Source: Polynucleobacter kasalickyi
Lineage (GTDB): Bacteria > Pseudomonadota > Gammaproteobacteria > Burkholderiales > Burkholderiaceae
Assembly (NCBI RefSeq): GCF_900176405.1
Contig: NZ_FWXJ01000004.1
Span: forward strand, 124,001-188,000
Reading direction: 5' to 3'
Length of the DNA stretch: 64,000 bases
In this document: positions 34,244 to 45,565 of the stretch, one piece after another
How positions within the stretch are numbered: position 1 is the first letter of the stretch
How the letters are laid out: every line of letters begins with the position of its first letter
Position numbers and translations under genes: made by a program
Notes under the pieces: model-generated
Seen by the model: the letters and a program-made list of their open reading frames with translations, nothing else
Database searches by the model: none
What the model was told of the DNA's origin: nothing

Positions 34244-34840
34244 TTAACTCATCACCAATGATTTTGATTCAATCACAGATCCATAAAGTGGGAAAACATT
34301 CTCACAATAGAAGGAGTGCTCTAAGGCAGTTCTTGCCGATGAACAATCTTCCACAATCGATACTTTGTAGCCACGCTCATACGCTGCACGACCCGTTGAA
34401 TCGATACACAGTGAAGTGACCATGCCGCATACCCAAACTTCTTTAATCGAGTTCGCTAACAAGGTATTGTCTAAATCTGTTTTTGAGAAGGCATTAAAAC
34501 CAACTTTGCCAGATACATAGGTAATTCTGTCACCAAACTCAGCTAATTCAGGAATATTTTCTGCACCAAAAGTGCCGACAGAAAAAGCGCCAGACTCTTT
34601 AATCTTATCTAAAATTCCAGACGAATTAGAAAGTGCTCGGTAACTACTTTCTAACACAATCGGCGTAGAGATAATGAGTGCTTTTGTATTCGCTAATTTA
34701 CGAATTAAATTCATCGTGTTTGCTAGCACTTCATCAACGCGTCCAGGTTCTTCTACTACACCTCTGAGAACGCCATTTTTTGCGAAGTAATCGTTTTGAA
34801 AGCCAACCAAGATTACTGCTAAGTTATCAAATGCATCCAT
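34244..34840 (-). CDS. Isochorismatase-fold protein lacking the usual catalytic Asp
   Basis: 198 residues with the isochorismatase fold. Cys is present in GMVTSLCIDSTGRAAYE, and the Lys probably lies in GKVGFNAFSKTD. The first motif reads ILVGFQNDYF, with Gly13 at the position of the catalytic Asp of IDMQNDF. Either this is a subfamily with different chemistry or it is non-hydrolytic. It lies downstream of the AtuA pair on the same strand, with a gap of about 160 bases, so co-transcription is possible but not certain. Confidence 0.8.
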   Translation of the reverse strand: MDAFDNLAVILVGFQNDYFAKNGVLRGVVEEPGRVDEVLANTMNLIRKLANTKALIISTPIVLESSYRALSNSSGILDKIKESGAFSVGTFGAENIPELAEFGDRITYVSGKVGFNAFSKTDLDNTLLANSIKEVWVCGMVTSLCIDSTGRAAYERGYKVSIVEDCSSARTALEHSFYCENVFPLYGSVIESKSLVMS

Positions 34841-40042: not shown

Positions 40043-40185
40043 AATTGAAAAGATAGAGTTGTACGTCAAGGTTAATGAATTGACAGAATTTGCTTAGAAA
40101 AATTAAAGCGATTAAACTAACAAACAGTATAAATAATTCCTAACCACGATTAGGAAAAATGCCCATGAGGCACAGGAGACAAAAA

Positions 40186-41211
40186 ATGATAAATAAAGCC
40201 TTAGCGTTGCCAAAATTTCGCCACTTGATCAGCGATCTGTTGCAAGTGTTTTCGGTGGCTACCGTATTGTGCGGTTGCTTCATGAATCCCTCATTTGCCC
40301 AAAATGCACCGAAAGAAGAGTACCCTGACCGTCCGGTGAAGTTGGTTGTCCCTTATGCTCCGGGTGGACCTACCGATATCATCGCCCGACTTCTCAGTCA
40401 AAAATTGACTACCCTTTGGGGGCAGGCCGTGATTGTTGATAATCGACCAGGTGCCAGCGGTAACACTGGTACTGCACAGGTGGCTAAATCAAAACCGGAT
40501 GGTTACACCATTCTTTTAAATACAAGTTCAGTTGCAGTAAACACGAGTTTATTCATCAACCCTGGCTACAACTTAGAGAAAGATTTTGTTGGGATTGCAA
40601 ATGTTGCCTCTACACCCAATATTTTCGTGGCTGGATCAAGTTTGCATGAAAAAACTTTGAAAGAGGCCATTGAAAATGCGAAGTCTGGAAAATATAACTA
40701 TGCATCACCTGGCGATGGCACAACCCCCCATCTTTCGGCTGAGTATTTGTTTAAAGTATTAGCAAAGGTACCTGTTGCCCATATTCCTTATAAGGGGGCT
40801 GGACCGGCTGTTAATGCTGCTTTAACCGGGGAGGTACAGTTTGGTAGCGTTGCTGTACCAGCGGCTAGCCAATTAATTATCGGTGGACAATTGAGGGGAT
40901 TAGCGGTCACTAGTTCGAAACGTATTGCTTCTTTACCCAATGTGCCAACCGTTGCTGAATCAGGCTTTGCTGGTTTTGAAGATTACACGTGGGTCGGCGT
41001 ATTTGTTCCGAAAGGAACTCCTCAGTCTTTAATTAATAAACTGAATAGTGATATTAATAAAATCTCTAATCAAGATGACTTCAAAGACCGCTTAGCAACC
41101 CTTGGTTTTGAAGGTGTAGGTGGTAGCGTTGAGCAATTTAATAAATACCTTCAAGCAGAATCTGTGAAATGGTCAAAAGTGGTTAAAGAGATTGGTATCA
41201 CCCCCCAATAA
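40186..41211 (+). CDS. Bug-family solute-binding receptor
   Basis: 341 residues from ATG 40186, fixed by AGGAGAC at 40174-40180; an upstream in-frame ATG lacks a site. It has a long signal region, then VKLVVPYAPGGPTDIIARLL and VDNRPGASGNTG. It lies upstream of a cupin gene (13 bases) and about 0.8 kb before the biuret-type enzymes, so it is a candidate receptor for biuret or a related nitrogen compound. That link is positional only. Confidence 0.92.
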   Translation: MINKALALPKFRHLISDLLQVFSVATVLCGCFMNPSFAQNAPKEEYPDRPVKLVVPYAPGGPTDIIARLLSQKLTTLWGQAVIVDNRPGASGNTGTAQVAKSKPDGYTILLNTSSVAVNTSLFINPGYNLEKDFVGIANVASTPNIFVAGSSLHEKTLKEAIENAKSGKYNYASPGDGTTPHLSAEYLFKVLAKVPVAHIPYKGAGPAVNAALTGEVQFGSVAVPAASQLIIGGQLRGLAVTSSKRIASLPNVPTVAESGFAGFEDYTWVGVFVPKGTPQSLINKLNSDINKISNQDDFKDRLATLGFEGVGGSVEQFNKYLQAESVKWSKVVKEIGITPQ

Positions 41212-41224
41212 TAAGGATATTTAG

Positions 41225-41773
41225 ATGCAGAACGAGTTACCTCCAGTGAGAAGAGTTGTTACCGAAAACGATGAAAATGGGAAATCTTTTTTTGTCAGTG
41301 ATGGGGCGCCCACTTCAATCCGTGAAGTTGCTGAGCGACCAGGATACCGCGTAAATAATATTTGGCGCACCAGTGCTAGTCCTGCTCTCATTCGAGCAGC
41401 TGATGATATTCATACGCACCAGGGCATCATGCCACCCAAAAATGGTACGGTACTCAGAATTATTGATTATCCGCCGGATCCTCAAGATCCTGTTGAGTTA
41501 AAAAAGCAACTTGATGCGATGTTCTCTCATCTTTATAAAGATGCTGGCCATGACTTAAAAGAGGGTGAGCATCCCGGTATGCACATTACTGAAACGGTGG
41601 ATTATGCAATTGTTCTTTTTGGACAAATGACTGCGATTTTAGAATCAGAGGAAACGGTTCTTAATGCAGGAGACGTACTTATTCAACGTGGGACGAATCA
41701 TGCTTGGACGAATCGATCAGGTAAAGCAGCAAGAATTGCTTTTATCTTAATTGATGGTTCAAACCAAGAATAA
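41225..41773 (+). CDS. Cupin-domain protein
   Basis: 182 residues. The second half is a cupin barrel: HITETVDYAIVLFGQMTAIL, then GDVLIQRGTNHAWTNRSGKAA. Thus only part of the metal-binding His/Glu set is obvious. The first half is less typical and contains GYRVNNIWRTSASPALIRAADD. Such single-cupin proteins are often isomerases, small-molecule binders or regulators. It is co-directional with the Bug gene upstream and followed by the regulatory repeats at 41.86-41.92 kb. Confidence 0.82.
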   Translation: MQNELPPVRRVVTENDENGKSFFVSDGAPTSIREVAERPGYRVNNIWRTSASPALIRAADDIHTHQGIMPPKNGTVLRIIDYPPDPQDPVELKKQLDAMFSHLYKDAGHDLKEGEHPGMHITETVDYAIVLFGQMTAILESEETVLNAGDVLIQRGTNHAWTNRSGKAARIAFILIDGSNQE

Positions 41774-41859
41774 CAATCGAATCTTTTTCTTCTATAACTC
41801 AAACAGAAGCAGGGCTGGTCAAACACTGCATGGTAGTTAGCACCTAGGCTAATGCTTGA

Positions 41860-41917
41860 TTACACAATAGTAGTTCATGCACCAAATTGTTCATCTTGTG
41901 TAATTTTTGGTGCATGA
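41860..41917. promoter_or_regulatory. Interleaved inverted repeats before the biuret operon
   Basis: TCATGCACCAAA (41875-41886) pairs with TTTGGTGCATGA (41906-41917), perfect 12-base arms. A second pair, TTACACAA (41860-41867) with TTGTGTAA (41896-41903), is interleaved with it. A further TGCACC lies at 41925-41930. The site ends about 130 bases before the first enzyme gene. Operator use by a dimeric regulator is the simplest reading; the interleaved order would also allow an RNA pseudoknot if transcribed. Confidence 0.5.
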
Positions 41918-42044
41918 AGAATCTTGCACCAATCAGCTCACTATAAACTCAATTGAATAAGAGATGATTTTATCGGTGGAGAGATTCAGGGTATTTCATT
42001 CATCTCGTAACTTGGTTGATAGATGATAAGAGTGAGGGGGGAGC

Positions 42045-42728
42045 ATGATTCAATCAGAGCCATACTCATGGCCATTTGATGGTAACTTGACGATTCAAAA
42101 TACTGCATTAATTGTGATTGATATGCAAACGGATTTTTGCGGGTTTGGGGGCTATGTCGATAAGATGGGCTATGACTTGAGCTTGACCAGAGCGCCTATT
42201 GAACCGATTAAAAACTTACTCCAAGTAGTTCGTGAATTGGGACTTTTTGTGATTCACACGAGAGAAGGACATCGTCCTGACTTGACTGATTTACCCGCTA
42301 ATAAACTCTGGAGATCAAAAAACATTGGTGCTGGTATTGGCGACCCTGGTCCCTGCGGAAGAATACTGATTCGAGGCGAACCGGGTTGGGAAATTATTCC
42401 AGAACTTGCGCCATTAGCAACTGAATGTATTATCGACAAGCCTGGCAAAGGTTCTTTTTATGCAACTGACTTAGATTTGATTTTGAGAACGCGTGGTATT
42501 CGTAATTTAATTTTGACGGGTATCACTACCGATGTTTGTGTCCACACTACCATGCGAGATGGGAATGATCGTGGCTATGAGTGTTTGTTGCTAGAAGACT
42601 GTACTGGAGCAACCGACTATGGAAATTATTTAGCTTCATTAAAAATGATTCAAATGCAAGGTGGCGTATTTGGGGCTGTATCCAATTCACTGCAATTGAT
42701 TGAAGGATTAAAAAAACTATCCAGATGA
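42045..42728 (+). CDS. biuH: Biuret amidohydrolase-like cysteine hydrolase
   Basis: 227 residues. It hydrolyses biuret to allophanate and ammonia if it follows BiuH. The family triad is Asp26 (IVIDMQTDF), Lys132 (IDKPGKGSF) and Cys165 ([12 protein letters not shown]), with Gln205 in QMQGGVFG. The spacings between these residues equal those recalled for Rhizobium BiuH (Asp36, Lys142, Cys175, Gln215). The blocks [15 protein letters not shown] and [15 protein letters not shown] are also BiuH-like. It heads a tightly packed operon with a second copy and allophanate hydrolase, which would use its product. Assignment rests on memory of BiuH, not on a database search. Confidence 0.82.
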
Positions 42729-43390
42729 AAACAATTTTAGCGAAGCCCTATGATTTTCCATTAGATCCCAAGTCTTGCGCTTTGGTCGTGATTGATATGC
42801 AAAGAGATTTTGTTGAATCGGGTGGATTTGGTGAAGCATTAGGTAATGATGTTTCTATTTTGCAAGAAATTGTGCCAACAGTTGAACAGTTACTAGCTCT
42901 ATGGAGAGAGGGTTCTGGGCTCGTGATTCATACGAGAGAGGTACATCTTCCCGATTTAAGTAACTGTCCCCCAGCAAAAATTCGTCGTGGAAATTTAAAA
43001 ACAAAAATTGGTGATCAAGGGCCAATGGGTAGATTGTTAGTTGCAGGGGAGTATGGATCCGAAATTATTGAATCTCTGATGCCCTTGGAGGGTGAAATTG
43101 TGATTGATAAACCCGGTAAGGGGGCTTTTTACAATACAGATCTTGGCAAAATACTGCTTGAAAAAGGGATCACTCAATTAATCATTGTTGGTGTAACGAC
43201 TGAAGTTTGCGTTCAAACAACGATGCGTGAAGCGAACGATCGTGGATTCGACTGTCTATTAATTGAAGATGCAACGGCAAGTTATTTCCCTGATTTTAAG
43301 CAATCGACGATTGATATGATTGTTGCACAAGGGGGTATTGTGGGTTGGTCAACTCCTTTCGCTAACTTATTGCAAGGGATAAAAAGTTGA
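42725..43390 (+). CDS. Second BiuH-like cysteine amidohydrolase
   Basis: 221 residues, overlapping the first copy by 4 bases (ATGA). Asp24, Lys129, Cys162 and Gln202 keep the BiuH spacing except for one residue between Asp and the rest. The substrate-loop region differs ([11 protein letters not shown] in place of [20 protein letters not shown] in place of CTGATDYGN), so the ligand may differ, for example another ureido or carbamoyl compound. It is a diverged paralogue, not a recent duplicate. Its stop overlaps the TTG of the allophanate hydrolase gene. Confidence 0.8.
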
Positions 43391-45180
43391 ATCAACATCC
43401 TTTTACGATTAGAGAGTGGAAAGAACTTTATCAGGGTGGAGTCTATACCCCGAGAGATTTAATTTTTAAATTAATTTCGGGTTTAGATCCGCACGATCCA
43501 GCTTTGATTTTGGTGTGCCCCGACTGGTTTGTTGAGGCTCAATTACAACAACTTGAAAAATCCGACCATCACGCCTTACCTTTGTATGGTGTGCCTTTCG
43601 TTGTCAAAGATAATATTGATGTGGCAGGTCTTGCTACCACCGCGGCCTGTCCAGAATTTGCTTATATTGCCAAAGAAAATGCTCAAGTTGTTGATCGACT
43701 CATGCAGGCCGGAGCAATCTTAATTGGTAAGACAAACCTTGATCAATTTGCAACGGGACTAGTCGGTACGCGTTCCCCATTTGGAGCGGTACCTAATACT
43801 TTTGATGCTAGATATATTAGTGGGGGTTCTAGTTCCGGCTCAGCCTCTATGGTGGCCAGAGGGATAGTGCCGTTTTCCTTAGGAACAGATACAGCCGGTT
43901 CAGGTCGTATCCCTGCAGGGTTAAATAATATTGTTGGTTTAAAAGCCACGCCAGGTAAAGTGCCAATGAAAGGCGTGCTACCAGCCTGTAAAACAATTGA
44001 TGTGGTTTCGATTTTTTCCTTAACGGTGGCAGATGCCGGAACCGTTCTATCCATTATTGAAGAGCTTGATGATACCAATACCCCCCCTAGGTTTGTGCAT
44101 CAAAATGCTTGGTTCAGAAATGGTGAAGGCCTCCCAAAACTTGGGATCCCAGCGAATCCTTTACTCAACCAAGAGCTAGGATACCAAAAAGCTTTTGAAC
44201 ATTCGATGACCGAAATCAAGCAACAATTTTCAGTAACGCCTATCAATATGACTCTGTTTGATCAGGTTGCGCAATTACTCTATGAAGGTCCTTGGGTTGC
44301 TGAACGGTTTATAACGATAGAAAAGCTATATCAGTCGAATCCTGATGCAATTGATCCTACAGTAAAAAAGGTGATTGAAAAGGCGCTCCAGTTCGATGCT
44401 ATTACAACCTTTAAAAAACAATATGAATTAGAGGACTTAAAGCGTCAAACTCAAGCAATTTGGCGTGAAATTGATGTCTTAGTTGTGCCAACTACGCCAA
44501 CCTGTCCAACCCTTGAAGCGGTAGCAAAAGATCCGATTCTTAGAAACTCTGAACTTGGCGCCTACACCAATTTTGTTAATCTCTTAGGTCTATGTGCAAT
44601 TGCAATCCCCGCCTCTATGAGTGATAGTGGTTTGCCATTTGGTATTACATTGATAGCGCCGCATGGCTATGATCATGCCCTAGTAAAGTTGGCGAGTTTT
44701 CTTGAAAAAGACAACACGCTATTATTAGGTAAAAATTTACGAAGTAAGCTACCCCAAGACCAAGCGTTGAATCATCCATTGGCGGCTAGACCTACCATGG
44801 AGATTGCAGTGGTGGGAGCACATTTAAAAGGCATGCCACTGCATTACCAAATTCAAGATAGTGGCTGTCAATTGGTTGAATCAACCTTTACTGCCAAAGA
44901 GTATCGACTATTTGCTTTGGCAAATACAATACCACCGAAGCCTGGATTAGTTCGAGTGGAAGACGGTGGAACTGCGATTGAAGTCGAAGTGTATCAAATG
45001 CCTCTAGATCGAGTCGGTGAATTTTTAAATCTAATTCCTACTCCGTTAGGCTTAGGCTCGATAAAACTAGAGAGCGGTAAAGTTGTGAAGGGGTTTATTT
45101 GTGAACCAATCGGTATACAAGGAGCCAAGGATATCAGTGAGTTTGGTGGCTGGAGAGGATATTTAAATCATGCTGCATGA
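43387..45180 (+). CDS. atzF: Allophanate hydrolase, AtzF type
   Basis: 597 residues. The N-terminal amidase domain (about 1-450) has Lys in [10 protein letters not shown], Ser in [13 protein letters not shown] and the nucleophile in [11 protein letters not shown]. The C-terminal domain (about 470-597; [15 protein letters not shown], then FGGWRGYL) is specific to allophanate hydrolases. The length matches AtzF (about 600) and excludes a plain amidase. It converts allophanate to ammonia and carbon dioxide, completing biuret breakdown. The start is TTG in a TTGA overlap with the previous stop, implying translational coupling. The following AtzH-like gene overlaps it by 11 bases. Confidence 0.9.
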
Positions 45181-45565
45181 ACCAATAGTGAATCAGCCTG
45201 AAGTTGTGGCAGAAATTACCAAAATTTTTTACGAATATGAGCAGGCTTTGATGACCAATGATGTCGAAAAATTAAATCAATATTTTTGGCAAGATGAGCG
45301 GGTCACTAGATATGGCATTGGTGATCGACAATGGGGCATTCAAGAATTAGTTGCTTATCGACAAGAAACTCCGGCACCTGATTTCACGAGAACTTTAGAG
45401 CACCTTCGGGTGAGTACCTTTGATCAACATACGGCGATTTGCCAGGTTGAGTTTGTCAGAAGTGATACAACATTACGCGGTTTTCAAACGCAAACGTGGC
45501 TGAAGATGTCAGGTATTTGGCGGATTGTATCAGCCCACGTTAGTATGATTCCGTTTGGAAAATAA
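45170..45565 (+). CDS. AtzH-like NTF2-fold protein (DUF3225)
   Basis: 131 residues of the NTF2/SnoaL-like fold: FYEYEQALMTNDVEKLNQYF at the start and WLKMSGIWRIVSAHVSMIPF at the end, typical of DUF3225. The family includes AtzH of the cyanuric acid operon, reported to act on 1,3-dicarboxyurea, a side product on the way to allophanate. It overlaps the allophanate hydrolase gene, which supports a helper role in that pathway. No AtzG or AtzE partner is present here, and the activity is inferred from memory of the family. Confidence 0.8.
   Translation: MLHEPIVNQPEVVAEITKIFYEYEQALMTNDVEKLNQYFWQDERVTRYGIGDRQWGIQELVAYRQETPAPDFTRTLEHLRVSTFDQHTAICQVEFVRSDTTLRGFQTQTWLKMSGIWRIVSAHVSMIPFGK

Follow-up and report, generated by a model that had tools for sequence, protein, structure and literature searches.

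A probable triuret mineralisation operon in Polynucleobacter kasalickyi and the DUF3225 protein that it encodes

We have analysed a 64,000-nucleotide stretch of the genome of the freshwater bacterium Polynucleobacter kasalickyi (NCBI RefSeq assembly GCF_900176405.1, contig NZ_FWXJ01000004.1, positions 124,001 to 188,000 of the forward strand; hereafter the window), in which an earlier note had described four overlapping genes as a biuret-degradation module with two copies of the biuret hydrolase BiuH, the allophanate hydrolase AtzF and an AtzH-like protein. As judged from their sequences, these genes very probably form a complete operon, biuH-trtA-atzF-trtB, for the mineralisation of triuret, which is a by-product of urea, rather than a biuret operon in which BiuH is duplicated. 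The four genes, with positions counted in the window, are as follows.

42045-42728, + strand: biuH (IHL1), predicted biuret amidohydrolase of 227 amino acids (equivalog score, residues, tree)
42725-43390, + strand: trtA (IHL2), predicted triuret hydrolase of 221 amino acids (PDB match, residues, tree)
43387-45180, + strand: atzF, predicted allophanate hydrolase of 597 amino acids with amidase and AH_C domains, TTG start (TIGR02713)
45170-45565, + strand: trtB-type DUF3225/AtzH-like protein of 131 amino acids (PF11533), proposed carboxybiuret decarboxylase

The coordinates, the strand and the overlaps of 4, 4 and 11 bases agree with those given for the four genes in the earlier note. The family matches of all four proteins have E-values of 1e-38 or better, and the gene order is identical in Polynucleobacter rarus MT-CBb6A5 (L101), the best match among the matches listed, so that chance can be excluded; BiuH, TrtA and the DUF3225 protein of P. 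rarus are 94%, 86% and 87% identical to those of the window, respectively. In the proposed pathway, TrtA would cleave one terminal amide of triuret to give ammonia and 1-carboxybiuret, and the DUF3225 protein would decarboxylate carboxybiuret to biuret, a step with an unaided half-life of about 20 min. BiuH would then convert biuret to allophanate and ammonia, and AtzF would convert allophanate to two ammonia and carbon dioxide; in sum, all four nitrogen atoms of triuret would be released. While the identities of BiuH, TrtA and AtzF can be read from the sequences, we infer the reaction of the DUF3225 protein, the flux through these steps and the use of the substrate as a nitrogen source.

Two cysteine hydrolases and an allophanate hydrolase

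The first hydrolase, IHL1, has Rhizobium BiuH as its best match in the PDB (382 bits, versus 208 bits for TrtA), is 73% identical to the solved BiuH structure 6azo and passes the NCBI BiuH equivalog model NF050097 (411 bits against a cut-off of 370 bits). The triad residues Asp26, Lys132 and Cys165 and the equivalent of Gln215, here Gln205 (together DKCQ), on which the earlier note had based its assignment to BiuH, are indeed in place. According to the available text of the TrtA study (PMC7948467), TrtA and BiuH differ at six positions: Phe35/Tyr, Asn41/Tyr, Ala134/Ser, Glu160/Asp, Tyr187/Thr and Ile205/Val. IHL1 is in the BiuH state at all six (YYSDTV). The second hydrolase, IHL2, had been taken for a BiuH paralogue with a changed substrate loop, but its best PDB match is Herbaspirillum TrtA (6xix, 304 bits, versus 194 bits for BiuH 6xjm), its identity is 65% to TrtA 6xix and 45% to BiuH, and it fails the BiuH equivalog cut-off (239 versus 370 bits). 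At the six discriminating positions IHL2 is in the TrtA state throughout and BiuH-type at none, and all ten TrtA residues are present (Asp24, Lys129, Cys162, Gln202, Phe35, Asn41, Ala134, Glu160, Tyr187 and Ile205); the supposedly changed residues are, in other words, the published ones of TrtA.

The ten-residue string of IHL1 is common to 95 of 100 BiuH matches, and that of IHL2 to 118 of the 137 TrtA matches with at least 50% identity. We also built a tree of 149 hydrolase rows, a subsample of 250 sequences, in which a single branch with a support of 95 in the Shimodaira-Hasegawa-like approximate likelihood ratio test (SH-aLRT) splits 69 TrtA-labelled from 67 BiuH-labelled rows, 13 rows being in neither group. 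IHL1 and IHL2 are each nearest to their own P. rarus counterpart, on the expected BiuH or TrtA side. Alignment with BiuH and phylogeny, both suggested as checks in the earlier note, thus gave a divided answer: IHL1 sides with BiuH and lies in the BiuH half of the tree, while IHL2 sides with TrtA and lies in the TrtA half. On the basis of the best solved structures, the equivalog model, the six residues of each protein, the ten-residue strings and the tree, IHL1 is assigned as BiuH and IHL2 as TrtA, an enzyme that has been described (PMC7948467) and that is marked by a preference of about 10^4-fold for triuret over biuret; the PDB match, equivalog score, residues and tree rule out IHL2, at the level of sequence, as a second BiuH copy.

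The 597-residue protein combines an Amidase domain (PF01425) with an AH_C domain (PF21986, 163 bits) and passes TIGR02713 (727 bits against a cut-off of 511 bits), in keeping with its earlier description as an allophanate hydrolase with the specific C-terminal domain, and it is predicted to be a full allophanate hydrolase. It carries Lys74, Ser148 and Ser172, which we take to be the catalytic triad.

The DUF3225 protein and the loci of TrtA

The last protein of the operon matches the AtzH-like family PF11533 (141 bits), for which DUF3225 is an older name (PMC6219798), and falls just below the HpxZ equivalog model NF033625 (132.2 versus 135 bits). In the available text of the same study, AtzH of Pseudomonas sp. 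ADP, encoded in the operon atzDGEHF (PDB 6bjt and 6d63), is assigned to 1,3-dicarboxyurea, acting after AtzEG, and its pocket consists of Tyr22, Arg46, Arg63, Arg66, Arg73, Phe94, Arg96, Gln106 and Gln108. The window protein shares the family and keeps all of these residues except Arg66, which is replaced by Thr. Unlike the Pseudomonas system, furthermore, the genome of the window (2.9 Mb, 99.94% complete) has, in genome-wide searches, no AtzD and no AtzE over the family cut-off of 425.75 bits; several amidases match the AtzE model below the cut-off, the best with 256 bits, and one of 242 bits is encoded some 10 kb upstream of biuH, on the contig of the window. The absence of AtzE that had been claimed earlier is therefore upheld at the family cut-off, and that of AtzG, claimed with it, is a point on which no aimed search was made. 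With no AtzE over the cut-off and no AtzD, an AtzEG route is rejected for this genome.

In the DUF3225 tree, the window protein groups with AtzE-free, TrtA-linked copies, and its gene stands in the context of the TrtB type, that is, a trtA-linked cluster of the biuret route without AtzE. All 77 copies linked to TrtA, BiuH or AtzD retain both Tyr22 and Arg46 (75 of 75 when two duplicates are removed). The DUF3225 protein would be best explained as TrtB, a carboxybiuret decarboxylase acting between TrtA and BiuH.

How common this arrangement is was assessed in 136 TrtA loci: the window, four loci on plasmid records, 51 on stretches of genomes from the order and 80 from a wider genome scan. The loci were chosen at TrtA identities of at least 50% to the query, with no two identical TrtA; those of the wider scan are the best 80 of at least 579 confirmed matches, by which the sample leans towards close relatives, and the stretches vary in length, some ending within the neighbourhood. 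Of the 136 loci, 69 have a DUF3225 gene within 9 kb of TrtA and 19 have a short-cupin gene within 3 kb of it; no locus has both, and 48 have neither. An AtzH-like gene beside biuret hydrolases, left unexplained in the earlier note, is hence a recurrent feature of TrtA loci, with or without AtzE. When the count is confined to the 99 loci having a BiuH of at least 65% identity within 6 kb (a first count had taken any BiuH label, including one at 29% in L093), DUF3225 is present in 60, the short cupin in 17, both in none and neither in 22. The common operon runs BMP-permease-(formamidase)-BiuH-ATPase-TrtA, followed by DUF3225, AtzF and DUF3225, AtzE and DUF3225, or the cupin; in some Variovorax and their kin, AtzE and DUF3225 stand ahead of BMP. 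The operon position of DUF3225 recurs in Burkholderiales and in some alphaproteobacteria.

Across 399 genomes of the order, TrtA/BiuH was matched at E <= 1e-45 in 57, an AtzH-like protein over the cut-off in 68 and AtzD in 25. TrtA (at E 1e-45), the AtzH-like protein and AtzD were found in none of the six other genomes of the same genus that were sampled, all of 1.7-2.1 Mb, and the triuret cluster would thus be an accessory trait in Polynucleobacter, as far as sampled.

Some other arrangements were noticed in the course of this comparison. In six loci (L106, L109, L115, L122, L159 and L161), atzD is located in the triuret operon between biuH and the gene for the ABC (ATP-binding cassette) ATPase, and cyanuric acid and triuret would there feed one carboxybiuret pool. 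The short cupin beside trtA in 19 loci (e.g., L006:7659-8006), mostly of alphaproteobacteria and some of cyanobacteria, has a conserved HxH motif, Glu and His, and is a candidate for an unrelated carboxybiuret decarboxylase. On the Escherichia coli plasmid pHS13-1-IncF (L328:6980-7648), a gene for a TrtA-like protein in which all ten residues of the TrtA string are present adjoins genes for DUF2877, fdrA, DUF1116, carbamate kinase and cytosine permease. At E <= 1e-60, TrtA has matches in 77 Escherichia plasmid records, the neighbourhood being seen for pHS13-1-IncF alone. A 61-kb IncR plasmid of Citrobacter freundii (L329:1-8425) carries genes for AtzF, an ABC transporter, formamidase, BiuH, TrtA and GntR beside an IS1 transposase gene, and neither DUF3225 nor the short cupin is annotated beside its trtA.

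Position 66 and the rival explanations

We then sorted the DUF3225 copies by their gene neighbourhood and compared the residue at position 66, leaving out the loci up to L040 except L005-L008, the duplicates L266/L267, short matches and matches with a stop. Arg66 occurs in 33 of the 33 TrtA-linked copies that directly follow AtzE and in none of the 34 TrtA-linked copies with no AtzE match above 250 bits within 9 kb of available DNA, which amounted to at least 2.7 kb upstream in each case and to as little as 74 bp downstream. The residue in these 34 is Cys (11), Val (7), Thr (6), Gln (3), Ser (3), Leu (2), Ile (1) or Ala (1), and a weaker AtzE-like match was seen among them in P. rarus only, 8.7 kb off. 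Among BiuH-linked copies, both of those with AtzE have Arg66 and the single one without it has Cys; the single AtzD-linked copy without AtzE has Ala. In a Variovorax copy (L171), for which 2.1 kb of upstream DNA was available, the gene directly upstream is an ABC gene and not AtzE, and residue 66 is Leu; an Azospirillum copy (L008) beside a divergent AtzE has Arg66.

A strict rule is contradicted by several copies. L137 and L140, with AtzE further off, have Val66. A further 18 copies are adjacent to AtzE and have neither TrtA, BiuH nor AtzD; 17 of these have Arg66 and one has Cys66 (L212). Even where all of these genes are missing from the neighbourhood, Arg66 is present in 18 copies out of 20, and the remaining two, a distant outgroup, carry Ser. 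Arg66 also occurs in four more unlinked copies, two of which have AtzE further off and two of which are at stretch edges. The rule thus holds where copies are linked to the pathway and does not extend to Arg66 in general.

In a looser first sorting, Arg66 was found in 52 of 56 AtzE-linked copies versus 0 of 29 AtzE-free, TrtA-linked ones, and position 66 was the most discriminating column. The stricter sorting moved three Gln66 copies (L114, L160 and L180) to the AtzE-free class, the neighbouring gene not being AtzE; by our own reading and with no search, this neighbour presumably resembles 5-formyltetrahydrofolate cyclo-ligase. On a 114-row tree built without column 66, the AtzE label changes four times and Arg66 five times over the 88 labelled rows. 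The independent pairs number four on the best tree and two on supported branches, with none in the opposite direction, and this number is too small for significance; the tree is built from few columns and leaves 51 of its 111 inner branches unresolved. Fisher tests of the association, for their part, take no account of relatedness. A statement of the Arg66 rule was not found in the papers on AtzH/DUF3225 and carboxybiuret in one open-access collection, as far as their text was available.

We put forward, as a tentative but quite possible proposal, that DUF3225 comprises two decarboxylases told apart by position 66: AtzH, with Arg66, would act after AtzE on the doubly charged 1,3-dicarboxyurea, and TrtB, lacking Arg66, would act without AtzE on the singly charged 1-carboxybiuret. 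The switch may have arisen more than once, each time with the loss of AtzE, and the short cupin of alphaproteobacteria and cyanobacteria may be an unrelated enzyme for the same step.

Several points weigh against our reading of the operon. First, we infer the membership of TrtB in DUF3225. According to its abstract, the TrtB paper of 2020 reportedly places trtB beside atzD in Herbaspirillum. In favour of this membership, the order in the Herbaspirillum loci L124 and L157 is BiuH-ATPase-TrtA-DUF3225-GntR, and as all the genes called between BMP and GntR in L124 are labelled, there is no other TrtB candidate inside that operon. We also searched 34 genomes of the genus to which G178 belongs, a genome that shows 85% DNA identity to H. 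frisingense across 16 kb; AtzD is found in two of these and an AtzH-like protein over the cut-off in 28. Also in favour, one of the two atzD-bearing genomes has a DUF3225 match, with Ala66, starting 48 bp past the AtzD match on the same strand. Against it, the same locus has a partial AtzE-like match (41%) on the other strand, 1.2 kb beyond this pair, and the second genome has no DUF3225 in its atzD stretch, an AtzE-like amidase (31%) following atzD instead (L295). A study of nitrifiers published in 2025 mentions trtB in clusters of this kind and lists atzH in its abstract, the available part not giving the family of trtB. Second, R66A and R66K are outside the five AtzH variants reported as impaired in the available text of PMC6219798, so that Arg66 marks the split and is not shown to matter for catalysis. 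Third, the 48 of 136 TrtA loci with neither DUF3225 nor the short cupin nearby indicate that an enzyme for the carboxybiuret step is not universal. Finally, the window operon has no transporter of the usual kind.

Those 48 loci would also suit a reading in which the DUF3225 protein is a bystander or a regulator, not an enzyme, and carboxybiuret decarboxylates spontaneously, as is documented in the available text of PMC7948467; the AtzH reaction was, moreover, followed only indirectly (PMC6219798, available text). Given the recurrence of the operon position in Burkholderiales and some alphaproteobacteria and the invariant Tyr22 and Arg46 in the 77 linked copies, we consider this unlikely. It is more doubtful still that the DUF3225 protein of a triuret operon is a true AtzH acting on 1,3-dicarboxyurea, with the AtzE activity supplied by an amidase elsewhere in the genome: the retained Tyr22 and Arg46 and the sub-cut-off amidases, including the one near biuH, are compatible with it, but none of these amidases reaches the AtzE cut-off, the protein is closest to AtzE-free copies, it has lost Arg66 in common with each of the 34 TrtA-linked copies for which the available DNA shows no AtzE, and the adjacent BiuH makes an AtzE route unnecessary. 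Least credible is the earlier reading, in which BiuH occurs twice in a biuret module and AtzH is misplaced. The shared BiuH catalytic residues and the 47% identity between IHL1 and IHL2 speak for it; the equivalog score, the higher identity to TrtA and the six TrtA residues of IHL2 speak against it.

Neighbouring genes, known systems and implications

Upstream of the proposed triuret operon are the following features.

40159-41211, + strand: Bug/TctC-type periplasmic binding protein (PF03401, 218 bits), in the same place in P. rarus
41225-41773, + strand: cupin-domain protein (PF07883, 30 bits)
41878-41914, strand not given: possible operator formed by the inverted repeat TGCACCA-N23-TGGTGCA between the cupin gene and biuH

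The earlier note had set the module at 40186-45565; its end is correct, but 40186 is an internal Met of the Bug open reading frame, the longest frame of which starts at 40159. The cupin gene and an intergenic gap of 271 bp between it and biuH, neither of which had been mentioned, separate the Bug gene from the four-gene operon, and the Bug and cupin genes are regarded as neighbours with no more than a possible link to the triuret pathway. Of the loci compared, 99 have a BiuH of 65% identity or more, and in 97 of these an ABC ATPase match occurs within 3 kb of TrtA. The two exceptions are the window and P. rarus; the window has the upstream Bug and cupin genes instead. The Bug protein had been proposed as the uptake partner, for which we obtained no support: a search of the genome found a single TctA and a single BMP protein, both on contigs other than that of the window, and this BMP protein is only 34% identical to the BMP of a Sulfitobacter triuret operon, to which the BMPs of Ideonella and Herbaspirillum are 62-64% identical. 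Two other Bug genes are located within 10 kb.

The cupin of the window is one of five matching places in its own genome, has relatives at E 1e-10 in 48 of the 399 genomes of the order (its own included) and shows only marginal similarity (E 0.04) to the cupin that accompanies TrtA in other bacteria. Since this type was labelled in just two of the 136 TrtA loci, the window and P. rarus, and is spread over five places and 48 genomes, a role as the decarboxylase is not supported.

The half-sites and spacing of the inverted repeat are kept in P. rarus, where the rest of the gap has diverged. The pattern TGCACCA-N2-30-TGGTGCA occurs at three places in the genome versus none for a backward-pattern control, and the other two (L280 and L281) are intergenic, beside genes for NMT1-type ABC binding proteins; the repeat before biuH is thus a possible operator. 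Its half-sites presumably resemble those of NtrC, with a wider spacer, which we regard as a lead only. A search for sigma-54 promoters gave 42 matches with up to two mismatches, against 35 expected, and none in the gap before biuH; sigma-70 promoters and terminators showed no excess over shuffles. Elsewhere in the window, at 34244-34840 on the - strand, lies the gene for one more isochorismatase-family hydrolase, which lacks the residue string of BiuH/TrtA and stands outside the pathway.

The closest described systems are those of Herbaspirillum sp. BH-1 and Rhizobium leguminosarum, with TrtA, TrtB, BiuH and AtzF (PMC7948467, available text). The window likewise clusters TrtA, BiuH and AtzF with the same signature residues, and carboxybiuret and biuret are the intermediates there, as proposed here. 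In contrast to these systems, neither a BMP-type ABC transporter nor a GntR gene was found in the window operon, biuH and trtA overlap directly with no ABC ATPase gene between them, and the Bug and cupin genes stand upstream. A plasmid operon of Ideonella dechloratans (L005) has the same TrtA-AtzF-DUF3225 order, with a DUF3225 protein 66.7% identical to that of the window, but differs in having an ABC transporter, a GntR regulator and an ATPase gene between biuH and trtA. The window would thus hold a pathway that is already known, in a host that is new for it and with neighbouring genes that differ locally; a search of one open-access collection found no paper naming both Polynucleobacter and biuret. 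Among solved structures, the uncharacterised Bxe_B1374 (PDB 2owp) is, like the window protein, a DUF3225 protein without Arg66. It groups with TrtA-linked Paraburkholderia copies, in a Cys66 subgroup as opposed to the Thr/Val/Ser/Ile subgroup of the window, and by this tree grouping, rather than by gene neighbourhood, is probably a solved structure of the TrtB type.

In conclusion, our analysis corrects a plausible misreading, two BiuH copies with a stray AtzH, and places the genes for triuret degradation in the genomes of P. kasalickyi and P. rarus. The comparison of loci suggests a one-residue rule that parts AtzH from its AtzE-free kin where these are linked to the pathway, points to 2owp as probably a structure of the second type, and nominates the short cupin as the decarboxylase in some bacteria without DUF3225.

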